Positions 7,470-22,906 of a DNA stretch of 22,906 nucleotides are shown piece by piece; the first letter of the stretch is position 1; the number at the start of each line of letters is the position of its first letter. Origin of the DNA: Phoronis ovalis (lineage: Eukaryota; Phoronida; Phoronidae); contig JAOXYB010052723.1 in NCBI GenBank assembly GCA_028565635.1, positions 3,185 to 26,090 on the forward strand, given 5' to 3'. The notes below the pieces were generated by a model. It saw nothing but the letters and a program-made list of their open reading frames with translations. It did not search any database and was not told where the DNA came from. A program made the translations under genes and the position numbers.

Positions 7470-8080
7470 CCATACAAATAAAACAGTTAACCATAATATA
7501 AGAATACATATTTACAGATAACATCAAAGAGAGCACACTGAAAACAGGGAAAACCTTGATATGATTTCTTCTTACTGTTTTACAAAATCACAAATTATTA
7601 ACTGAAGTACACTTCAGAATTAACAATTGCATTAAAATACTACATAAACAGCCACATGAATCTTGCTTCAAATATTGTATAATAATGCATTCAGTCTCTT
7701 TGAAAAGCGAGTACACGTACATTTTGGCATTCATATTCCTAAGGCATCTGTGCTTCGAGACAATTCTAACACACCCCTATTACAATACACCTATATAACA
7801 TCCACTTATAATTTGCTTTATTGAAGTGCAGATAAAATTCAACATTTGGCAGCGCATATTTCTGTCTTGTAGCGTACATTTTTTTTAATTACTTAGGCAA
7901 TAACAGTGCACAAAACCCTTAGACACACTGGGCATTTATTTAACAATTTGGACCTTAAGAAAATGACATATTGGTACACAACAATACAAAATATCATATA
8001 TAAAATGAGCATACAACAGGAATACCATTCTTCTGGTGCTGAAGTATTACAACTCAGCTTGACAACACTACTGGTCTAAC

Positions 8081-8232
8081 CATTTTGCACTGCATGCATG
8101 TGCAGCAGTGTCCCTCCCTATCTAGTGATATAATCATTTTGCACAGCATGCATGTGCAGCAGTGTCCCTCCCCATCTAGTGATATAATCATTTTGCACTT
8201 CATGCATTTGCAGCAGTGCCCTCCTTATCTAG
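8081..8232. repeat. Tandem repeat, 54-bp unit, about 2.8 copies
   Basis: Units begin at 8081, 8135 and 8189 with CATTTTGCAC and share GCATGCATGTGCAGCAGTG and ATCTAGTGATATAAT. Copies 1 and 2 differ at few positions; copy 3 is shorter and more diverged. The core of copy 1 can fold, CACTGC pairing with GCAGTG. It lies in the presumed 3' UTR. Confidence 0.9.
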
Positions 8233-8996: not shown

Positions 8997-9318
8997 TTAA
9001 AATGGAGGTGGTTTTTTGTGCGTAAGTTCAGCAAATGGATTAACAGCATCGCTAAGTACCCACCATGTTTCTTGATAACGAGAACTATCCAACGCTGACT
9101 CAACTGTTGGTGGTATCAACACATAAACCATTAAAAAAAATGCAATTAATATCATAAATCCAGCTGCCAAGATCCGCAGTCTTTTTGATGTGAAATCCAT
9201 TGTTAACAAAGCACCAATGTTATTAAGGCGTAAATATGGCAATCTTTTACAAAGAGTTTTCGTTTGCGTCCATTTTTCCTTAACTGTCCCTCTGGCTAAT
9301 TGCAATACAGTTCGAGCA
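8997..9318 (-). CDS. IRAG2: IRAG/LRMP last exon: membrane anchor and KASH-like tail
   Basis: The acceptor is TGTGTTCCAG and the stop is TAA at 8997-8999. A basic amphipathic stretch leads to the hydrophobic segment ILAAGFMILIAFFLMVYVLI (9114-9173). A 38-residue tail with QETWW follows and ends THKKPPPF. A single C-terminal membrane segment places the bulk of the protein in the cytosol and the tail in the ER or perinuclear lumen. Confidence 0.93.
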
Positions 9319-12300
9319 CTGGAACACAAATAATATATGTTAATTATGTATGTTAATTAAGAATTTCATCTCATTGCACAAAATGGATGAAGTATATTGT
9401 TGGAAATTACAGAAAGATATGCAAGTTATACACATATGTGAAATAACTACAATATTTGTTGCATATTCCTTTTTCAGGCATTGTTAATTTTGGTAATTTA
9501 TATTCTATAGCAAAGACTTACGGTGAGTTTCAAATTTTATAAGATTATCTTTAAAGAGTAACAAAGGAACTAAATAGATTTACATTGCAGCACAATTGTT
9601 TATTTCGTATTGTTTCAAAAGCAGCACATAACAGTAAGACAATTCTAGTTATAACTTTCAAAGCCTGTACCCCAGAGAGAGAGAGAGGTCAAGACGAAAC
9701 GCAAGATTTGCAGATACAATGGTATTTACATTTTTCTTAATGAAAAAAATATACCGCCAAATTACTTATTTACCAATAGGAAAAATGCTATTTTATTTAA
9801 AACAAGTTACTTAACATTGTGTGGATGCTGTTTTAAGTCCCTAGTGCAATTAGAAATAGGGGTGCTGCTTACGTGGTAATATTTTCTTCCTCCTCCTGTG
9901 TTTTATCTATAAGATCTTCTATTTCAGTTTGCATTTCACTTTGCTGTTCTTTGATATTACCTATTTCTTGAGCAACTTTTGCTCTCATACCTTGTTCAAA
10001 CCTAGAGTACAACAGTAAGGATATTATCCAAGAATATCAGAGTCAAGTTACATTAATCAGCAATCAAAGCTTTTATTCACACCTTCATCACTAATATTAT
10101 CATTGTGTTATTTTATAAACATATCAGATGGTGTGTTGCAACTAATACCTAAGATGTAGTATTTTTTAATTCGATATATCAGAAAACTCATCTTTCCTGG
10201 GTTCAGCCAAAAATATTTTGAAATTAAATTAGATACATTTATTCTTTATTGTCACAAAGCAACACAATTAATCTAATAAAAAGTTAATAGCGTATTGCGA
10301 GAAAAAAGTTTCATTTGAGAATTGTAATTAAAACAACAAAAATTTTGGATGATTAACAAAATTATTGTCAATTAATAGGATCTATTCTTATTCATTTGCT
10401 AACAAGACTATTAGCATGCAATTGGTGGAGCCACTGGTCATCAACCGACACATTTCCAGAATGCAGTATTTGATGAGCAACGATACATACCCCATTGGCT
10501 TAACTCACTGCATGGAAATAGTCTATTGAGAGCCAAAGTTTGGTCTACTTACCCTGCTTTGAAAGCTACCTCTTCAGCTATTTTCCTGCTAACATCAGAT
10601 TCTGGTGAAGGTGTAGTCGGTGTGTTTGGCTGATCAGAACACTCATCCCTGTGATTAAGCAAAAGCTATATTTTGAAGTAATTTATGCAAACAGAAAAGA
10701 AGCAAACAGAAAAGAAGCAACTAGTCTTGTCATTAGTCTTAGAACATACATTTGATTTGCTTTACTGGGCTTTTCCAAACCCTTTTATGCAACCATAACA
10801 CTGATGCCTCAAATATTTCCATAACATGTTTGTTTTACGACTGATTGTTAGCAATGTTTTTTTTTAGATGGCTGGAATTAATGGAGTGAAGCATACTTCA
10901 TAACAAATACTACATAACACTTCCTTAAGTAATCACCATAATATAGATACATGATTGGTTGATTATTAGACCGAAACATAGTTAATACAGGATTTACTAC
11001 TCACTTTTTGTTATCTTTGTCAGCAATGAGTGAATTATTGTTCGTTTCAGTTGATGATTTGGTGTCTGACACTTTAGCACTTTTGTTTTCTAAGGAAGCC
11101 CTCCTTAACGATGAAGTAATCGAGTTCTTAACTTGAGCTGCAGCGACAATACTCTGGAATCTTGTCTTGGCATCCTGGATAGCAGATAATATTATATTAA
11201 ATGTTCATGACATACAATTCTAGAGAATTTTTAGTTATTGAAATTTTAAGTCCTTATTTTATATTTATTAATGTGCAATATGACCCTTCCTTGCTCCAAT
11301 TTCCTGGTTTCACTACTAGAAAAAAATAGAGTCGAAAAACGAATCATACTTATTTTGTGAATAAACTGGTATTCTTTTACTACAAAATAAATAACTTGAT
11401 ATCTAATTCATTTTCAATCTTTAAAAATTTGGAATTTTTTTCTTTGCACAAAGGTACTTTTGAAAAAAATTATTATTAGTAGAAAACAATCTGAACCGGT
11501 GTAGATACAAAGATAGGGATACGGCACGGACATATACTGTAAGATTTTCTACTTGGTGTACTAAAAAAAGGGTCAGTTAGGCATTCCTTTTATTATATAA
11601 TATAAATAATATTACTAGTACCACTTTTTTCTAACGATTGCTTGTGTTTCTCATTTTTTCATTATAATTATAATGCATAGATAAATTGTGTACACAAACA
11701 AAAGTTACTAACTAAATATTCTGAAACTATTTTGTTATTAAATCATTCTGTACAAACAGCGTTTTACAGCAATCATACATTCATCACCAAAGAAAGAAAT
11801 AAAACAATATCATAATAACATATTGTTTATGAATGGCAGGGAATACATCAAAGTGGACACATATTTGTGAATAACAGGAGAACAAAAAGTGTATGTCTAG
11901 AACCTTTAAAATCATGCTAAACAATGCCTTAGTTAAAATCTTTTTAAAATTTTCTAAAATTTTCAATATTATTGCTTCTATATTCAACACCGAATGCTAA
12001 TCACGAAGCATGTTTACTCGATTTAGTATACATGAATTTTAAAATGAACAAGCAAGCAATGTTTAAGTGTCACACAAGTTAGTTGAAACATTATATCAAG
12101 GTTTTTAGAGGTGCAGTTGGGTATGGAAAATTAGTTCTAACACCAAACTATGCAGGACTTATTGGCATTCGACAGATATCCTCAACCTTGTGCTTCTCAC
12201 CTTACTATGGAGATCCAGAGACGGAATAACACTGTTCTATCAATACGAGCATACAATCAATTAATATCACGCAAAAGATGGCCAAAAACTAAGAAAAGGT

Positions 12301-15300
12301 ATATTTAGTGCTCATAACACATCAATGTTTAGTAATCTTGTCCTTCAAATACAATTGTTTGTTATTAACTGCATGTCACGAATCTAAAAACAAAATCCAC
12401 TCTCACTTTCCTTAGTACACCCTTGCAGTGTGGAGGGTTCTATTAAACTATGTAAGCAATGTAAGGTCTATTAAAAGTGCTAACAGAAATTTTTATATTA
12501 GTAATTTTGAACTTACCATTTGAGGAGAAACAGGTGAAGAGGGAACACTACCAGTACCGCCTAGCATTCTGGGTAAAGCTGTAGCGATACTAGCTCGCCT
12601 TCGAGCTGTTCCCTGTAACAGAAAATTAAAAACACCACAAATTATTAACGATTAATTTTTTGCTTAGAATAATGATTTATTTGAGAAACAAATATTTTTC
12701 AGTACTCTTGAGTGTTTTTTCTTGACTTGTACTCTTATGGGTTAAAATCTCAAGAAATTTAATAATTATTCATTATAACAGAAGTATAAAAGGCTTTAGT
12801 TTTTGTTGTGGACTGTGCATTTCAGGTCATACTTATTATTTACCGACTATTTGCAGCTAAAAGTGGAGCCACTACTACAACAATGGCTGTATGACAACAC
12901 AGCAAGACAGAGTAAAGAAATAAATTTCAGCACACATCTATAGAAATAAGCTAAACTTTATTAATTATTCATTCAAAATTCAAAGTGAAATAAAAGTTTG
13001 ATAAAAACTACAATAAACTATAGAAACACAAGCGGAGCTATTTTCTTAATAACTCAAATAAAGGTTTAAAATGAAAAGCATGTGAAGTGAAAAGCACATC
13101 TCTGGTGTGTAAAATAAGTTTTAATTTGTAACTTGCAGTATTATTGCGCACGGGCTTGGAACAAAAAGCTCTTGATACAACATTTAAAGATTCCATAAAA
13201 GCAGGTAATTGTTATTAAAAAGAGATTGAGGATTATAAGTTAACAACACAGCAATCTTAGTTTGAAAATCAAACGATTGCAAGTACCTGTTCCAATATTG
13301 GCGGAGATGTCGAGCTCCTCTGATGAATTACATTTGTCTACATACATATCAAACATGATGTTATTACAATTATGTTATTAACGTTCCAATTTTACTTTTA
13401 TACTTTTGAGCCACTAACACATACTTAAATAGGCTTACACTGCTATATATAATATGAAAGTTTACTTAATTTATTCAACAGCTGAAATTATACACTCAAG
13501 TAAAATTACTCCACATGTCTGCATAGTTTATACACTTCAGTCTTAACGATAATGGTTCGTTTCAAACTATGAAAGTTCATACAAAGATATATGTCCATTT
13601 CTCTAAATACTCCTAGGCTGAATCTTATGGTGGTTGATGAAGATAGTACAAGATCTGTGTATGTGATGATCAGTACATACCTTAGAACCTTGTCTACTAA
13701 AGCCCACTGATGACCTTCGACTATTTGGTTCCAATTCTCCATTAGCACTCACAGTAGACCAAGATCTTTCTTGTAACAAGCGCCTACAAAATAAAGGGTT
13801 TTGATATAATAGTCATAACTTAAAGTTACATTACAAATGAGTCGCTACATAATTGCTTGCATCTCAGGCAAATCGAACAGATATTTTGAAGACAACACCA
13901 AAATATGCAAATGTCTTACACATTCGCATGTAAGGTTAAGCAAAATGTTTTGATTCCTAGAGTGAGTTTAAAGTTAAATTCCATTCTATTACGTGACTAT
14001 ATATACTTTAAGCATTTTTTTTTTCAGGATAAATCCAATAAAACTTGTTTTAATACAATCACTCATTCAACATTCAGTGGCATAATCATGATCACCAGGT
14101 ACAAACAAGTTGAAACACTTTTTTTCGTATTTAAGTATAATTTCACAAAGGTCACAAAATAGGATAGCTGTAGTGTTACTACATTACTGGAGTCTTAACA
14201 ATGCATAAAGCAACTTTTTTAGTGGTTCAGATGATTTCACATTATAAAATTAGCAATGTACAATTACAATTAACTTTATATTTTGAATGGATATTCATAT
14301 AGTATCTTCACCTGGTCAGTTATTTAAATATATTTTCAAAGATTTTAGTCACTTGCTGCCGAATGGCTATTCCAATAGTTGTTTACCCCCCTACTTCCGG
14401 TTTTTATACAGATGCATACTATCAATTACACTGTAGAAATAAAGGTTTATTGGACTTTAAAAAATCAGTAAAGAAAATTGTAGAAAAAGAAATTATTGAG
14501 TACATGTATATAACACTATACATCATGTCAACAGAAAAAATTCTAAACATAAGATTTATTTTTAATTTGAAGATTTGTCCTAATTTCTACTGAAGGTACA
14601 TTTGGTTTGCATGTGTAGCATTAGGAGGGGGACTGAAGCAGTCTCTGTATGAGAAGGCCCTATTATTCAGCTCATTCTGAGATTTTTCGACTATCACCAG
14701 GTGACTATAATCTTTATCAACTTAAATATCAATATGAATGTTCACTCTGTTAACTCATAATTAATAGTCAACAATTAACAAAAAAATTAAGCTTACAATC
14801 ACAGTGAAAATTGTGATAAATTTATTTTTGATTCATAATGAAACAAATTTTTTACCTGTATTTACATTTTTTTTAAACAAAACAGTGGCTAAATAGTCAC
14901 TGGATCGCATGGCTGCTATGTTTCAATATACAGAATCAAGTAACTTTAACAAATGTTTAAAATTACAAACTATATTAAATCCAGCAGTGCAACTTTGCTG
15001 CATATATAATACATAATTATAAGTGTTATTAGAAAAGCATCACTCACTGTTAGAAAATGTGAATGTTGATGTCTAATTCCACCAAAAGAAAACTTCATCC
15101 AAAAAATGTGAAACGGGTATTAGAAAATCAATTAAACCAGCAGACTTTCATGATATAACATAATTTTTGTATTTGAAAACTTCTACTTAGTAAACTGGGA
15201 AAATAATGAACAATTCAGAAACTCAGCTGGAAATCGGAAGCTTAGAAACCACTTCAACAACAAAGTCACACTATACTGAAAGCATATATTATGGAGAAAA

Positions 15301-18300
15301 CAAACATAAGCAGTGATGTCAGAGTAAAGCCACAACACATGATTTACCGTCCTCCTGGAGGAGTGCTGGCGCAAAATATAAACTCCCTAAATCATCAACA
15401 TTATCACAAAACAATATCAGAAACATGCAAAATGGCACAATATAAAATTTTGGAAAACATACCAAAAATTATTACTTTTTCCTTGACATGATAGAAAACT
15501 ATATCTTGGGGAAAGATTTATATTAATTTCAAATTCTACTGTCCACAAGTGGTGAACTTTTGCCACAGCACATAAAAAAATAAATACATGTTTTTTTTCT
15601 ATGAAATCATGTCAATGGGACACTTAGGGTGGGTTGCAACTTCTTGATGTGCAAGAATATCAATTTAAGACGTACTTTGTTTCTTCTAACTCCTGGTGTT
15701 CTCGTTCATAAATGTTCTTCAGATTTTCAACGTATATCAGCATCAGATCGATAGCCATGTTTAGTCTGTTCTCCTTTAAAGTAAAATAGATTAAATCAGC
15801 TAAGAATATTGTCACTATTTTAGGTAACATAAAACCTCAAAGATACATCCGATTATTATAACACACTATAAAGTATTTGGTAGCAAACAAGCTTAGTTAA
15901 TTAAGGGGTATACATGGGTTCACATCGACACAAGCAGCATAACCTTAAAATTACACTGACAGAGAACACAATGGTAAATACTGAGTGATGAACACTATTT
16001 GTATTTTTACCTTTTGGGGTATACATGGGTAAAAATCGACACTAACTTTGGATACAGGGTAACATATTTATACATTCATAATTTTGGGGATCCATGTATA
16101 CCGTTTCCTTTATTAGACGCTTAGATAAGTATCAATTTCATAGTAGAAATATTAAGACTCATATGTAGATCAGACTGTATTATTACCAACCTGTTGTACA
16201 GCACCATGTATTTCAGCCTTCATTGAGATTCTTTTTGTTGACTGCTCTAAAACTTGTATGTGGTATTTGATTTTATTCAAAATTTCATTAGTTTCCGCAT
16301 CTACCAAAGCAACGTTCAGACTCTGAAATCATAAAAGAAAAGTGTTTTATAAGACACTGAGCATTTTCCTAGAAAGGGCATATTTATCGGCATTGTTTGA
16401 CCACAGTATTCTAGTTTTGATGTCTTAGGTAACAGACCATTTCCCCAGTCAAATGGTTTTATTTCATCTCCAAAGTTTCAGGGAGGTAGAGGGAGAGATC
16501 ATGTAAATGTGTAGACGATTACAGGCCTATAGTAAGGGCCCTGGGGTTTCAGCACTGGATAAAAATCATATTGGACACCTGTATCTCAAATGGGATACTC
16601 CTCCACATTTCAGACAGAATTAGTGTGCTAATTTTTCAAGTTGAATGAAGTATTTGTGTCACAACAAATAAACACTCCCTTGGTACACAACATTGTATGA
16701 TATTTTACTAAACTGCAATGTGGAAGTCTGTGTGAATATTAATATTGTACCGTCAATATACTTCAGAAGTTATTTGACTGCAATACCAGTAACAGGACAG
16801 AAATCTTCCCTATACAACACACATGTCAGTCAGTACATACAAACAACGTTACAAAAACAACAAAAAATCATTTCAAAAAGTTTTTACATCGAAATATTGA
16901 CACTATGCTTTCTACAGCAAGAAATGTTTAATTCCAAGAATCTTTCCAAGCTGTTGTAAAATGACCTGGTTTACTAAAATATTTTTAAATGACTGAAATT
17001 TACATACAACATTTTCTAAATGGATCAATGAAGCAATTTTTTATGATTAACTAAAATAAACTAAAATAAATAAACAGAGTGAGATATAGTAAAAGACAAT
17101 TATGTAGTGAAATATTAGTAAAATAACAGAAACAATTAGATCTCAGATTATCATGCAAACAAAAAAATACGAAAGATGTACCATTTGTTTGTTGAACCCT
17201 TGAAATGCCATCTTTTAAACAAAAATAAAAAAAAACATGACATAATTAATAAATCTAAAATCTTAGAGAAAAAAATTAAGTCATGCAGGTTACAATGACC
17301 TAACTCCAGGAATAAAAAATTATTCTTTATTTAAAATAAAATATATTAAAAAAATTGAATTGGTGTTGGGATTTCACTGATACCTTTATACATTGTAGAT
17401 ATATATCTTTTTTGTAAGCTGCTTGATACCCAAGATTATGTTATTTAAATCCAGTACATGCCAAAGATCTATTGGCATTTGCCTCATATAATTACATACT
17501 ATGCATGTTTATGCTAGATATTCAAAAAAAAATAAAAAATTGACTAGCAACCAGACACCGATATCGCGCGAGAAAATTACATCAAAAATGGACTATGTAG
17601 GTAAAAGTTTTGACAAGACATTTTAAACTGAAGAGTCATATTTGACACAGAATGTTACTATTTGATTCAAATACAAAATAGACATAGAAGTGAGGAATTT
17701 TGCCAATATGGAGTACACATATTTCTCAGCAGCATTTTAACATATTAATTTCCTAACTTTTGCATATTTTTAAGTTTTTTCCAATGCCTAATAGATGTGT
17801 TTAAACTTTTAAGTTTAAAAACAAAAAAGGAACATCAGTTTTTCTAGTTTGTTTTGCATAATTATGCATATAAATCAGATATCTGAGTTTAGGGATTTTA
17901 AAAAAGTGCATTTAAACAGTATTTGAGGCAAGAGAGGGGACAAGTAACATACTTTTGTGGACAATGACAGAATACATCAAAAAAAATCATTTTTGTCTTA
18001 TGAATTTTATGAAATTAAATGCTTTTTTGTATCTTTTTGAGTATTTAGTTTTTAGTGGCAGCATGTATTCAAGAAAACGTGACATTATTTAAATTAACAG
18101 ACTATACTGTTTCTAAAAATGTATTGCACCTATACAATATTACTAACTATGTTTATTAAAATTAATGCAAATAACATGGTGTGACGCATGGTGAAGAGTT
18201 GCATCATACCTAAATTTCAAAATCACTGATGCGCACGCAGTCATGACAAATAAAAGTATACATTGACAAATAATCATTCTTTAATGAGTAAAAAATAAAC

Positions 18301-21300
18301 AATAATACCCATAAAGTTAGGTAAAAAAGGGGTTATTCATAACAAAAAGAGTTTAATATCTGGATGGTAAAAAGATCAAGATTATTATTCATATTTCATT
18401 GACTCATGTGAATAAGTTTTTTTTGCAATAAATATTAAGTTGAAATCTTTTAAATGGCTATTATATTAGGTCAGCAACTCAATAAACATTTACATTTTAA
18501 TTCTTCCTTAACCTCAGCTCAATAGAACATTCATATGTGGTTAGAAAGTGACAACACCCACATTTTTTTTAATATTTAACCATTAGAATTTGTTTTACCT
18601 GTAAGGTATCGTGCAAGCCTTTTAGTTCCTTATCAGCACTTAGTTCTGCAGCATCTCGAGCTCTCTGTTGTGTTTCTAGTCTCTGATGTAATGTCTCCTT
18701 GTCCATTTTAAATGCAATGCTTAAACTGTTAAACTTACGTTCCAGTTCTTCTTCACTCATATTAGCAGGACTTAAAAGAAACAAAAGTATATTAGAAATG
18801 ATTTAAAACTGAACAAGTACAATATTATAGACATATTTTACACAAGGCAGCTACCACTTTCCTTTTTTATGAACTACGGAAATACACTTTATATAATTAC
18901 ATACGTACTATGCAAACATATACTTATAAAGATTTCCTGTAGCTTACCTAGTGAAATCTTGAACAACAGCTCTCCTTTTCTTGAGTCCCATTCTCTGTAA
19001 ATATTTATTTGGAAGGCTTGGTGTGATAGGTTCATCTGTTGTTTCAGGCTGAGGTACCTCAACAATAAGCCGTGACTGAGAACCATTTTGTTCTTCAGAG
19101 CTATTCTGAATTCTCGCTTCAACTTCAAAATCAGGATTCATTGGTTTTGTTGGTGATGTTAGCTCATTTTCTGCCTCTTGCAATCCGGGCATTTTTAATG
19201 CCTGAAACTGTCCACGCTTTTTGGTTAAGTTGTCCTGAAGAATGAATGCAAACAGAGTTGGCAACAAGCAGTATAAAAACTAAGACTCACAAAATTTAAA
19301 TTAAAAAAATATTTCAACTGCAATGGAAAACATAGCATCATGTAAACAAACAGTCTCGATGATCCCGAGAGATCAGAAACATTGAATTTGGCAATATGTG
19401 GACAGCACTTTTTTGAAAAAAAGCCTTTGTTCCTGCATGTTGTTCCTGCGCTTTGTTTTGAAAATACACAATAAAAACAGTCTTCTTTTAACACGATCTT
19501 TCAGCACACAACGTTATTATTGCTACTCAAAAACATGTTTTAAGGAAAGACCTAATTCATTACCATTTGCTGCAACCATTACCTAATAGTAGAGTTATGT
19601 AACAGCCCTTCAAAACTTATGTTTCTAAACACTTTTAGAACATGTTTATCAGAACATGAACTAGTTAATGTAGTTGTAGTAATTATTTCTAGTAAGATAA
19701 GCTATTTTCACCAACTACATAATTACCTAATATACCTAATTAGGAGAGCAAAAATACTTAGCATACTAAGTTAGCATTTAATCTTAAAAACAAGCATTTC
19801 AAAATCTTTGAATTCAGTATTTACCTGAGTTAACCAGTGCAAAAGTTTTGTTCTCAACCAAACCAAAGTAAACCACAACATACCAAACAGAAGAAAATAA
19901 TGTTGCTTTGACTTGTTTACTGAGGTGTCAATTTTAAACTTAGGATCATATCCTGAAAAAGGTATCATATTTCAGGAGATTCTAAAATTTATAGAAATGT
20001 AGCTGTAGAATAAACTCACCTGTCTTATTTTGGCCAAATCTGAAGCACTATTGGGCTTTATGAATTTACTGCTGTGAAAATCTACAGGTTTTCCCTCTAA
20101 AGCTTCATTAAAACCTTGAAGAATTTCTTGCTTTATATCCACAGACTCAACTTCAGGATCCTAAATTATAAATAGCACAGTATGTGATTAATAAACAAAT
20201 GTGATTAAAATTCATCGCATTATTAAATTTCAACCATATAATTTTTAAATAATGAGCTAACCATCAAATAAAATAATATATGTGTTGTGTAGGCCCTTTG
20301 CAAGTTATTCATGTAGAAATAGCATGCAAATGTTCCATCCAGTCCAATACAAAAAGAATTAAAAACTCTAAAACACATGCTAACTCCTCACATGGTTTGG
20401 AATCAACCTTATAAACATGTCTCAAACACAGGTATGTCTAAAGAAAATAAATACAAAGTACATGTATATGTTAAACATTTACCAAAAAATCATGTACCTG
20501 CTGTGTGGCTTTTCAACTAGTGATCATGTGTATTAACTTGGCTCAGTAGAAAAGTTTAATTTTTAACTGGCTACAATTGACCACAAATGTCAGGTGTAAA
20601 CTTAGTTAGTATTCTGGAAACTATCAATTTACTCCAATATAAACAATTCAGTACAAACAGTGTCTTATATAATGAACTTTAAAAAAAGTAAGCATTTTAT
20701 TTACCTAAGTTCTTGTTTATCAGAGACCCTACACTTTTTTTATAAACATTTTTTTCGTATTAATTATAGAACATCTGCAAAGGTAAGTATATTAAGTCCA
20801 ATAATAAAACTCTCTACTACAAATTCATTCATAGTCTATGTTTCATGGAACAGTAACAATTACAGTACAATAGCAATTGTTATCTATGCCACACAAAAAT
20901 CTTCAAAACAAATCTGTGCAACTAAAATTGTGCACCTAATTGTCTTACCATGCCATGCTGATGTTTTCTACAACTGGAGGTGGTTAAAAGTGTGCTATTA
21001 TTTATGTAACATGGGTTCACATTTTGCAAAAATATCTAAACACATTCTTGATTTCAGTTTGTTTATTGAAGCAGGAAATGTGAGAATAGGTATATGTTTA
21101 TTTAGACTGCTGAAAGTTAAGAAAGTAAACACTGAAAAGTGTATTTTAGACCAGGTATAATAAAGAAAAAAATAATGCAACATTCAGTGCTTATGGCATG
21201 ATTAAGGTATCAGTTTTTATGCATGAATAAACTGTTAGCATGAAAGCACGCTTAATAAACTGTATACATTAACTGCATGGACAGTACATTAATCATACTG

Positions 21301-22294
21301 TCTAATAATATAAACTTTCCTTTCCATGACATGAGAAAAAAAGTTTCATCTAAAAAAAAAATTGGAGAAGAAATTAAGTCAAAACTCCTCCACCTACATA
21401 TACCGATACTAACATTTGGGGTTTTGATTTCCAAAAAATATTTCTGTGTTAGAATTTTTCAAAGTTTTAACTTAAACTATAAACCCTTAAACTTTAAAAC
21501 TTTCTTACTTAGAACAAGAAAATTTAAAAACCTGATAAACTGACACATAGTTTTGTGGAGCCATAATATGATTGTTACAAGTTATTTGTGAAAAATATGA
21601 ATATTACAGGTGTTGGGGGTGGGGGGTTCTACATTCACTACATTAGAAAGTGTGACTTGCATGCTTTTATAATTGTAAATTTTTATAAGTCAATTCCGGG
21701 TCTATATATATTGCTAAATTTTGTTCGTGCTTAAAATGTTGCAGCAACCCCTCCAGCCAACTAAAATACCAGTAATTATCTAATATAAAGTATCTGGCTT
21801 GGCTGAAAAGCTTATTGCTCATTTTCAACAGGTGTCTACTACATTTGAATTTGCATGTGTTTTTCTTAATATACTAACATTGCATCTAAACATACTGATG
21901 TTCCTTTCATAATTTTCTTATGCTTTTAGCACGTTACCTCTTTTCGCTCTTGACTTTCCTGTGTACTTATATTAAAGTACGACTCCCTTGTTGTTGCATC
22001 AGTTAGTGATATTTCTTCTGAAGCAATACTATCTTCAGAGATACTGTCCTGAATTGATTCTGTTTCGGCTCTTTCCAAAGCTTCTTTTAACTTTACTTGA
22101 TCCACTGCTAGTTCAAGAGCACTATCATACGAATGTCTTCTTTGTAAACCTGAAGAAAGAGGGAATTTAATGATGTCAGCACAGCCAACTATCACTAGAT
22201 GTTAGGATGTAAGAGTGGAGCCCACTGCATGCGCACCTGTCAAAGGCTTCTCTTTTACTTGGAAGTCTTTTCCGTTGGTTCGATTATCAGTCAT
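8997..22294 (-). CDS. IRAG2: IRAG/LRMP family membrane protein with KASH-like tail
   Basis: This is a homologue of IRAG1 (MRVI1) and IRAG2 (LRMP/Jaw1), coiled-coil proteins of the ER and outer nuclear membrane that bind IP3 receptors; vertebrate IRAG1 is a cGMP-kinase I substrate. Fifteen exons join in frame to 694 codons. Residues 238-370 are coiled coil with the family block EELERKFNSLSIAFKMDKET and YVENLKNIYEREHQELEE. Residues 388-483 are basic and Ser-rich with RRSS, RRRAS and LRRAS. Residues 534-590 are a second helix including AFKAGFEQGMRAK. Residues 637-656 are a single membrane segment, followed by a 38-residue lumenal tail ending KKPPPF. The start at 22294 has an in-frame TAG upstream (22340-22342). 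The family call rests on remembered mammalian sequences. It resembles both paralogues, so the symbol is a choice. Introns not listed separately hold nothing I can name. Confidence 0.9.
9319..9872 (-). other. Intron 14 of the IRAG/LRMP gene
   Basis: This 554-base intron holds a candidate alternative exon at 9522-9548 (see findings) and a short GA run near 9675. Nothing else was recognised. Confidence 0.6.
9873..10001 (-). CDS. IRAG2: IRAG/LRMP coding exon 14 (residues 545-576)
   Basis: The acceptor is TACTCTAG and the donor is AC|GTAAGC. The exon encodes FEQGMRAKVAQEIGNIKEQQ and an acidic coiled coil ending TQEEEENIT. The exon also carries the end of the split codon at residue 545 and spans to residue 588 by length. 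Confidence 0.9.
10553..10648 (-). CDS. IRAG2: IRAG/LRMP coding exon 13 (residues 513-545)
   Basis: The acceptor is TTAATCACAG and the donor is GG|GTAAGT. A Thr/Pro-rich stretch (TPTTPSPE) is followed by SRKIAEEVAFKAG, the start of the second helical region, which resembles IRAG1. Confidence 0.9.
11005..11174 (-). CDS. IRAG2: IRAG/LRMP coding exon 12 with LRRAS site
   Basis: The acceptor is TGCTATCCAG and the donor is AA|GTGAGT. The exon encodes DAKTRFQSIVAAAQVKNS and SSLRRASLENK, then a Ser/Thr/Asn-rich linker. LRRASL resembles the classic cyclic-nucleotide-kinase peptide. Confidence 0.9.
11175..12516 (-). other. Introns around the 36-nt microexon
   Basis: Apart from the microexon at 12201-12236, this 1.3-kb stretch is AT-rich and shows no exon, repeat family or RNA gene that I recognise. 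Confidence 0.6.
12201..12236 (-). CDS. IRAG2: IRAG/LRMP coding exon 11, 36-nt microexon
   Basis: The acceptor is GTATTGATAG and the donor AAG|GTGAGA is strong. Twelve whole codons, NSVIPSLDLHSK, are phase 0 at both ends. It sits where mammalian IRAG1 has a Ser-rich stretch with IPSLP, which supports a real exon. It may be alternatively used. Confidence 0.62.
12517..12612 (-). CDS. IRAG2: IRAG/LRMP coding exon 10 with RRRAS site
   Basis: The acceptor is TTCTGTTACAG and the donor is ATG|GTAAGT. The exon has 32 whole codons beginning GTARRRASIATALPRMLGG. The RRRxSxA-x-x-P pattern matches the kinase-site block of vertebrate IRAG1 and LRMP as I remember them. Confidence 0.92.
13287..13319 (-). 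CDS. IRAG2: IRAG/LRMP coding exon 9, 33-nt microexon
   Basis: The acceptor is AATTCATCAG and the donor is CAG|GTACTT. Eleven whole codons, RSSTSPPILEQ, lie between phase-0 neighbours. The content (Ser/Pro-rich) and frame fit. Skipping it would keep the frame, so it may be optional. Confidence 0.7.
13681..13783 (-). CDS. IRAG2: IRAG/LRMP coding exon 8 (residues 367-401)
   Basis: The acceptor is TATTTTGTAG and the donor is AAG|GTATGT in phase 0. The exon encodes RLLQERSWSTV and NSRRSSVGFSRQGSK, a basic segment with an R-R-x-S site as in the LRMP family. Confidence 0.88.
13784..15675 (-). other. Intron 7 of the IRAG/LRMP gene (about 1.9 kb)
   Basis: This intron has several small open frames on both strands and some isolated splice-like sites, for example near 15050, but none gives an in-frame exon. 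No recognisable element was seen. Confidence 0.6.
15676..15773 (-). CDS. IRAG2: IRAG/LRMP coding exon 7 (residues 335-367)
   Basis: The acceptor is TACTTTAAAG and the donor is AA|GTACGT. The exon encodes ENRLNMAIDLMLIYVENLKN and YEREHQELEET, the end of the main coiled coil and a strongly conserved family block. Confidence 0.93.
15905..16102. repeat. Direct and inverted copies of GGTATACATGG
   Basis: GGGGTATACATGGG followed at fixed spacing by ATCGACAC occurs at 15905-15931 and again at 16016-16042. An inverted copy, CCATGTATACC, lies at 16092-16102. All are in intron 6 of the IRAG/LRMP gene. The pattern suggests the ends of a small decayed element; the family is unknown. Confidence 0.6.
16191..16322 (-). 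CDS. IRAG2: IRAG/LRMP coding exon 6 (residues 291-334)
   Basis: The acceptor is GATTTCAG and the donor is CAG|GTTGGT. The exon has 44 whole codons of coiled coil, including EQSTKRISMKAEIHGAVQQ, which aligns with the family without gaps across both junctions. Confidence 0.92.
16323..18598 (-). other. Intron 5 of the IRAG/LRMP gene (about 2.3 kb)
   Basis: This is mostly AT-rich simple sequence. It contains one weak candidate microexon at 17182-17211 (see findings) and a less AT-rich stretch near 16480-16620 of unknown origin. Confidence 0.6.
18599..18770 (-). CDS. IRAG2: IRAG/LRMP coding exon 5 (residues 233-290)
   Basis: The acceptor is TTCTTTTAAG and the donor is CAG|GTAAAA. This is the most diagnostic exon: EELERKFNSLSIAFKMDKET and RLETQQRARDAAE match the conserved start of the IRAG/LRMP coiled coil. 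Confidence 0.93.
18948..19234 (-). CDS. IRAG2: IRAG/LRMP coding exon 4 (residues 138-233)
   Basis: The acceptor is TTCATTCTTCAG and the donor is AG|GTAAGC. The exon encodes DNLTKKRGQFQALKMPGLQE, a Pro/Glu-rich linker, and YLQRMGLKKRRAVVQDFT leading into the coiled coil. Confidence 0.9.
19235..20019 (-). other. Intron 3 of the IRAG/LRMP gene with a candidate alternative first exon
   Basis: This 785-base intron holds an open stretch at 19825-19968 that could act as an alternative first exon (see findings). Other open frames across 19225-19586 look like chance. Confidence 0.55.
20020..20160 (-). CDS. IRAG2: IRAG/LRMP coding exon 3 (residues 91-137)
   Basis: The acceptor is TAATTTAG and the donor is CAG|GTGAGT. 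The exon has 47 whole codons, phase 0 at both ends, encoding EILQGFNEALEGKPVDF and ending LAKIRQ. Confidence 0.87.
20161..21937 (-). other. Intron 2 of the IRAG/LRMP gene (about 1.8 kb)
   Basis: The intron holds the longest uninterrupted open frame in the window, on the opposite strand at 20672-21160. It has no recognised family. No in-frame sense exon was found. Confidence 0.55.
21938..22149 (-). CDS. IRAG2: IRAG/LRMP coding exon 2 (residues 20-90)
   Basis: The acceptor is TTTCTTCAG and the donor is GAG|GTAACG in phase 0. The exon holds LQRRHSYDSALELAVDQVKL, a basic R-R-x-S site, then an acidic Ser/Glu-rich stretch likely to be unstructured. Confidence 0.88.
22237..22294 (-). CDS. IRAG2: IRAG/LRMP coding exon 1 (residues 1-19)
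   Basis: ATG at 22292-22294 begins MTDNRTNGKDFQVKEKPLT. The donor is ACAG|GTGCGC in phase 1, matching the next exon. An in-frame TAG at 22340-22342 supports this start if the leader is unspliced. Confidence 0.75.
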
Positions 22295-22906
22295 AATTTT
22301 ACATAAAATTAATTCAACTAAGTCACAGCAAATATGACACTATTGTGTAAAATTCTTGTAGAACTGATGGAGGCGTTCCATCTTGTCACCTACGTTAACA
22401 GGTGCATAATTAGTTGGCAAAAATTAATAAAGTGTGAAATATAACAAACAATTAAAAACCTTCAATTTGAATTAGATTGGCTTGAACTAGAATACTGTAA
22501 ATAAAATGTAAGCATCTATTTTAAAGTGCTTACAAATGCTAACTTTCAGAATTTCCCCCTATTGCAGCTTATAGCCAACATTAAAAAAAAAATATCCTAA
22601 ATAACTATAATTCTGGAACTTTTGAATACTATATAACTATTAGCCAAGTAGACTTGCTCAAGTCCTTGGGAACTTAAAAAAAAAAATAAATAAAAAAAAA
22701 TAAATGTTTAATTCTCTTTTTATGTCTTTTACATCAGTGTTTTTAATTATCTCGAATTTTTTTTTTTTTTTTTACTATCATATATATGTTGGGTGTTTGC
22801 CGTCCACAAGGACTTGTAAAGTTCGCAGACTTTCCATTGATATGAATAATTCATGACCTTGTGACGTCATATTTAAATAGCAATTTCGAAAGTTAGACTT
22901 TTCCCC
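22295..22906. other. 5' flank and leader of the IRAG/LRMP gene
   Basis: This stretch contains the likely 5' UTR and possibly the promoter. It includes a start-stop uORF next to the start codon, A-rich and T-rich runs at about 22676-22704 and 22755-22772, and a CRE at 22862. The transcription start could not be placed. Confidence 0.45.
22862..22879. promoter_or_regulatory. Perfect CRE next to a TATA-like palindrome
   Basis: TGACGTCA at 22862-22869 is the full palindromic cAMP-response element, and TATTTAAATA at 22870-22879 directly abuts it. Both read the same on either strand, so they could serve the IRAG/LRMP gene, about 570 bases away, or a gene to the right of the window. Confidence 0.4.

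Follow-up and report, generated by a model that had tools for sequence, protein, structure and literature searches.

The IRAG/LRMP gene of Phoronis ovalis encodes a predicted invertebrate protein that closes with a real KASH6 domain, the atypical KASH type of LRMP. Judged from sequence, the anchoring ability it would confer looks older than the vertebrates. The gene lies in the window, by which we mean the whole stretch of DNA analysed (22,906 nucleotides). Its last exon encodes one membrane segment followed by a luminal tail that starts at residue 644, comprises 39 residues (IPPTVESALDSSRYQETWWVLSDAVNPFAELTHKKPPPF), has no cysteine and ends in PPPF. A preliminary description of this DNA had listed these properties, and the spliced model bears them out with a tail of 39 rather than 38 residues; it named no strand; the minus strand carries the gene. 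It also spoke of a canonical KASH signature. The KASH end is real, but the alignment and identities given below place it with KASH6 and not with the nesprin type. The direction of the earlier interpretation is right, its subtype is wrong and its PPPx signature is too general.

We built the gene by hand from splice signals as 14 exons between an ATG at 22294 and a stop codon at 8997, with 682 encoded residues, GT-AG borders at 13 of 13 introns and an open frame throughout. The start ATG is uncertain, and the contig ends 612 bases upstream of it. Residues 189-494 score 112.5 bits with the Pfam MRVI1 model (PF05781; cut-off 27); the match ends at model position 430 of 533, short of the tail. Three MRVI1 matches occur in the assembly, all on the window's contig (C3148), and a second IRAG/LRMP paralogue was not found in this assembly of 77.4 Mb and 4805 contigs, which may be incomplete. 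Protein searches found no close relatives; in a protein tree, the window protein sits on a long branch outside any supported group, weakly associated (54/75 support) with an annelid, molluscs and a bird. The features are as follows.

22720..22906 (+): inverted-repeat arm holding the end of the window's contig; the same arm ends contig C1776
18948..22294 (-): exons 1-4 (22237-22294, 21938-22149, 20020-20160, 18948-19234), N-terminal region (splice model)
15676..18770 (-): exons 5-7 (18599-18770, 16191-16322, 15676-15773), conserved MRVI1 coiled coil (PF05781 by exon and on the whole protein)
13681..13783 (-): exon 8, with RRSSV at residue 389 (splice model and site pattern)
13287..13319 (-): exon 9, a 33-base microexon encoding RSSTSPPILEQ (splice signals only)
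12517..12612 (-): exon 10, with RRRASIATALPR at residue 416 (splice model and site pattern)
11005..11174 (-): exon 11, with the basophilic site LRRAS at residue 467 (splice model and site pattern)
10553..10648 (-): exon 12 (splice model)
9873..10001 (-): exon 13, stem preceding the membrane segment (splice model)
8997..9318 (-): exon 14, the last, with pre-membrane stem, membrane segment, predicted KASH6 tail and stop (acceptor, phase and open reading frame)
9117..9179 (-): membrane segment, about residues 623-643 (hydropathy)
9066..9116 (-): rest of the luminal tail, residues 644-660, without cysteine (spliced model)
9000..9065 (-): 22-residue KASH6-like luminal domain, residues 661-682, WWVLSDAVNPFAELTHKKPPPF (ungapped match to human KASH6, profile, shuffles and identities)
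9000..9011 (-): PPPF hook, residues 679-682 (spliced model; unique PPPx among 1536 open reading frame ends)

Two further elements lie past the stop codon. A 54-base tandem repeat (2.9 copies, 91% matches) occupies window positions 8077-8232 and is perhaps part of the 3' untranslated region. The exons of a transaldolase gene, from 543 to about 6460 (-), are located directly downstream on the same strand; one of them matches TAL_FSA with 24.9 bits, against a cut-off of 27, and the remaining ones were judged by eye.

Exon 14 begins at the acceptor TTTGTGTTCCAG in phase 2 and finishes with the stop codon at 8997-8999; the stretch 8997-9173 encodes residues 625-682 and the stop. Hydropathy windows above 1.3 are confined, in the whole protein, to residues 618-653, with a single hydrophobic segment peaking at about residues 625-643, from which we infer a type II topology with one C-terminal membrane segment. 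In this predicted gene model, the use of exon 14 rests on its splice sites and on homology. Were the exon mis-assigned, the main transcript would end elsewhere and lack a KASH domain, which would agree with the Capitella model, one that ends without a membrane segment. The clean acceptor, the frame-keeping phase 2 junction, the stop immediately after PPPF and the alignment of stem and membrane segment with the gastropod-like protein P0001 all speak against such an ending, which we regard as very improbable.

In KASH proteins the luminal tail is no longer than about 40 residues and ends in PPPx; the tail described here has 39 and ends in PPPF. A PDB search with the membrane segment and tail (E up to 10) returned only the human LRMP KASH6 chains 8b46_D (E 0.29) and 7z8y_D (E 0.66), and this match is weak alone and not significant. 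The tail aligns without gaps to human LRMP KASH6 from the tryptophan to the C-terminus, over 22 residues of which nine are identical. The window residues at the LRMP positions are Trp534, Leu537, Val541, Pro543-Phe544, Leu547 and His549, so that the LRMP-spaced Trp534, Pro543-Phe544, His549 and PPPx are all present; differences from the human domain are Asp at His539, Lys at Gly551 and PPPF for PPPV. Counted without gaps from the C-terminus, the window 22-mer shares nine identities with human KASH6, three with nesprin-2 and five with nesprin-3. A profile of six KASH6 tails, from which the window was excluded, scored the window tail at 43.7 and the runner-up at 4.8 among 1536 stop-terminated open reading frame ends of at least 22 residues, drawn from the window and five stretches of the same genome; the window tail is also the sole PPPx end in this set. 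Shuffling the tail 300,000 times never reproduced its profile score; with PPPF held out, one shuffle in 300,000 did. The preliminary description had stated that vertebrate LRMP has such an end, and the PDB match, profile and identities agree that the window tail is homologous to the LRMP KASH domain.

A proline-rich tail behind a membrane segment might resemble a KASH end by coincidence, as PPPx alone is short and the tail's own PDB match has an E of only 0.29. We consider this extremely improbable in view of the shuffles and of the gap between 43.7 and the next open reading frame end, and because the tail occurs in the right family, for which a SUN complex with the KASH domain of the human member has been solved. 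The profile and shuffle tests led us to reject a chance or convergent PPPx end. We also rejected a nesprin-type KASH domain, which fits more poorly and has no Pfam KASH match: a Pfam scan of the window protein to E 1 gave no KASH match, and the Pfam KASH model (PF10541) had no match in the animal's own genome, but the control genomes likewise gave none. We take this model to rest on nesprin-type domains.

Eight KASH6 tails align without gaps over the 22 residues, with Trp534, Pro543 and a Phe or Tyr at position 544 present in 8/8 each. His549 is kept in five of the eight (window, human, bird, Diploptera and Cryptotermes). At position 539, the window and Cryptotermes have Asp, Periplaneta and Diploptera have Glu, and the bird has Gln; human, Homarus and Petrolisthes have His. 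His539, which human KASH6 needs for its pH-triggered 9:6 assembly, is therefore absent from the window tail, and this residue may not define the subtype.

Pooled protein searches yielded 33 distinct relatives, including isoforms and repeated species; one of the searches scored only 7997 candidates, those sharing the most words. A script identified a C-terminal membrane segment in 29 of the 33, the exceptions being Capitella, two Arion entries and the partial bird protein P0030. The arrangement Trp-(8)-Pro-Phe/Tyr stands exactly 22 residues from the end in 9/29: Homarus, Petrolisthes, Periplaneta, Diploptera, Cryptotermes, P0018 and three LRMP entries (two named birds). The arthropods that share the domain thus include two cockroaches, a termite and a lobster, and the best PDB match of the Periplaneta (E 1.5e-4) and Homarus (E 1.4e-4) tails is human KASH6. 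Since the same domain occurs in vertebrates and arthropods, KASH6 predates their split and is older than the vertebrates, whatever the window species. The KASH end is thus no vertebrate novelty, which agrees with the earlier suggestion that linking the nucleus to the cytoskeleton would be an old function of the family.

The PPPx end itself is not general in the family. A strict PPPx end is found in 6/29 relatives and an xPPx end in 15/29, and the 22-residue domain is missing from 20/29, so the family can apparently live without it. The preliminary description had regarded related species without PPPx as evidence against its reading; such species do occur, which counts in part against it, although the distribution looks like erosion within particular lineages. 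In Petrolisthes, the 22-residue domain is present but its end is CKPF. The gastropods and bivalves retrieved have short tails: unionid bivalves end in EPPH, Biomphalaria in RPPT and Bulinus in QPPT (luminal stretch of about 13 residues), and Pomacea, Babylonia and P0001 in PAQ or SAQ. P0012 and P0013 end in TPPV, with luminal stretches, like those of the unionids, of about 14-19 residues. Horseshoe crabs end in HNPL, LTPL or APRS, and the copepod and barnacle have lost the motif and carry unrelated ends. In P0009, P0010, P0012 and P0013 (bivalves among them), the short tail retains xPPx and, like LRMP, a His six positions ahead of the C-terminus. This suggests to us a shortened hook, as if without the lid-packing helix, and not an unrelated end.

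The same genome encodes a matching SUN partner. Four exon translations on contig C317, joined by hand, form a SUN domain that matches human SUN1, the chain also present in the 8b46 complex, with 228.7 bits; in the KASH-lid region the two agree at 30 of 39 positions, including the whole of SLFGIPLW. A second, more divergent SUN-domain exon (HYGQEHYCPLSIVRVY) lies on contig C688:4363-4557 (+). The Cys of RCSETY, presumably the one that bonds nesprins, is present in this genome's SUN. Cysteines of SUN1 and SUN2 can form bonds with nesprins, as stated in a passage of PMC5371868. Passages of PMC10827754 describe the human SUN1-KASH6 crystal structure, in which the C-terminus occupies a pocket between SUN protomers and the adjoining residues pair with the KASH-lid. 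Its lid residues Phe671, Ile673, Leu675 and Trp676 are where Trp534, Leu537 and Leu541 pack, the hinge is His549 instead of the Tyr of other KASH proteins, and low pH induces 9:6 assembly by way of His539.

With the family and tail homology, the spacing, the key residues and this SUN partner in hand, we consider it likely that the gene product is a tail-anchored type II IRAG/LRMP protein of the endoplasmic reticulum and outer nuclear membrane that carries a luminal KASH6 domain and is retained via SUN. The predicted steps concern binding, location, the cytoskeletal link and regulation. PPPF would insert into the pocket between two SUN protomers, AELTHKK, just before it, would pair with the KASH-lid, a hinge His would occupy the place of LRMP His549, and the Trp-led segment would pack on the lid like the LRMP helix. 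We expect this pocket-and-lid binding to proceed without the pH-switched 9:6 form. Part of the protein would thereby be retained at the nuclear envelope, where SUN would be joined to the partners of the cytosolic part, namely those of the conserved coiled coil (the IP3 receptor in vertebrates) and of the cGMP-kinase-type sites.

Alternatively, the tail could be a KASH6 relic that is homologous to LRMP but no SUN ligand, and would serve only as the luminal anchor of an IP3-receptor-regulating protein of the endoplasmic reticulum under cGMP kinase. The short, eroded or lost tails of 20/29 relatives (molluscs, horseshoe crabs, copepod, barnacle) fit this idea, as do the Asp at His539 and the Lys for Gly551 in the window. 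However, the PPPx end, the hinge His and the Trp-to-C-terminus spacing are intact in the window, the KASH-lid of the partner is intact as well, and their joint retention is not expected of a relic, which makes this explanation unlikely. The anchoring scheme outlined above remains our preferred reading.

The cytosolic part retains the regulatory region of the family. Passages of PMC10298018 report that the conserved MRVI1 coiled coil is needed for IP3-receptor interaction in vertebrates and place phosphosites at RSAS363 and RRVT375 of human LRMP and at RSMS664 and RRVS677 of IRAG1. A pattern scan of the window protein detected putative sites past the coiled coil at RRSS(V) 389, RRRAS 416 and LRRAS 467. 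We identify RRRASIATALPR at 416 as the putative counterpart of the LRMP RRVT and IRAG1 RRVS cGMP-kinase site, and RRSSV at 389 as a candidate counterpart of RSAS and RSMS. As bird-type LRMP has RRVSIATLPR, the putative cGMP-kinase site after the coiled coil is probably old, and it shares a chain with the predicted KASH domain here. The microexon at 13287-13319 (-) sits between two candidate cGMP-kinase sites, and its optional use could alter their spacing.

The gene may extend further upstream. EF-hand_9 and KASH_CCD, the domain pair of the dynein adaptor KASH5, precede MRVI1 in Cryptotermes P0021 (KASH_CCD 54.9 bits, cut-off 43.3; EF-hand_9 34.4 bits, below the cut-off of 37) and in Bambusicola P0030 (169.5 and 57.5 bits), a partial protein that stops before the membrane segment. 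The termite fusion is possibly a gene-model artefact, and Pfam detected neither domain in the Babylonia and Biomphalaria proteins, which are long enough. Passages of PMC10071310 report homology between KASH5 and the N-terminal part of zebrafish futile cycle/lrmp, in which an EF-hand mutation impairs pronuclear migration. In this assembly, C1776:5336-13307 (+) harbours EF-hand_9 exons scoring 44.6 bits (cut-off 37) and KASH_CCD exons scoring 42.8 bits, slightly short of the 43.3 cut-off; all share a strand and follow the expected order. A local profile located the EF exons on C1776, which an earlier EF-hand_9 search had missed, and no other place for the EF pair was found in the genome. We rejected EF-hand_9 matches on C2693, C1323 and C4581, whose translations resemble calmodulin-type EF-hands, and set aside a KASH_CCD match on C4690 as this model also matches two bacterial/archaeal control genomes.

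C1776 ends at 14039 and the window's contig at 26090, both inside the same inverted-repeat arm, and the two contigs, laid end to end along transcription, reproduce the plus-arm, minus-arm order of intact copies, for example those on C1901 and C3923. With 40 of 174 candidates scored, 48 matches to this element are listed in the assembly. On the same scoring, at least 18 of the 35 contigs with the element have a match within 250 bases of an end, that is, 18 of 9610 contig ends, a count whose true value may be several times higher. The element therefore seems to break the assembly, and because so few contig ends fall within it, chance sharing of the terminal arm is unlikely, with a probability under about 2 per cent even on the assumption that every one of the 174 candidates is terminal. 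The rest of the coiled coil, however, was not found. The C1776 exons are possibly the 5' half of the IRAG/LRMP gene, in which case a KASH5-type dynein-binding EF-hand would also be linked to SUN.

These observations lead us to propose, with evenly divided confidence, that the ancestral bilaterian gene was three-in-one, combining a KASH5-type dynein-recruiting EF-hand/coiled coil, an IRAG coiled coil with cGMP-kinase sites touching IP3 receptors, and a SUN-holding KASH6 domain. Mammalian KASH5, LRMP and IRAG1 would be fragments that split these jobs, and all parts would be kept here, probably in one locus broken by the repeat. If this is true, NO/cGMP and calcium signalling could act directly on the nucleus-moving LINC complex. 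The presence of KASH6 in insects, a lobster and this animal would place the origin of LRMP-type nuclear anchoring at least in the arthropod-vertebrate common ancestor. It fits the role of zebrafish lrmp in pronuclear migration, as against mammalian LRMP, known from immune and taste cells. Simple animals become usable for testing LRMP-type nuclear anchoring, and the repeated shortening or loss of the tail provides a natural experiment that separates the calcium role from the nuclear role.

A review lists LRMP as one of six vertebrate KASH proteins and credits Drosophila with two (PMC4130368). Among titles and abstract openings of the open-licence literature searched, we recognised no description of an invertebrate LRMP-type KASH domain, and the LRMP passages of the papers found there to name LRMP, KASH and invertebrates report none.

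Compared with known systems, the KASH5-type exons on C1776 recall KASH5 (CCDC155) and zebrafish futile cycle and lie in the same genome, although their physical link to the gene is presumed. The protein resembles nesprins 1-3 in its C-terminal membrane segment and PPPx end and differs from them in a tail without cysteine, a hinge His instead of Tyr and only three (nesprin-2) and five (nesprin-3) identities. It shares the family domain and a putative equivalent phosphorylation-site region with IRAG1/MRVI1, which is not known to have a KASH domain. In common with LRMP/Jaw1/IRAG2, it has the MRVI1 coiled coil, putative cGMP-kinase-type sites in the stretch that separates the coiled coil from the membrane, one C-terminal membrane segment and a predicted luminal KASH6 domain in which Trp534, Pro543-Phe544, His549 and PPPx keep the same spacing. 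Unlike human LRMP, with which its tail shares 9/22 identities, it has Asp for His539 and PPPF for PPPV, and a single family locus was found in this assembly where vertebrates have IRAG1 and IRAG2.
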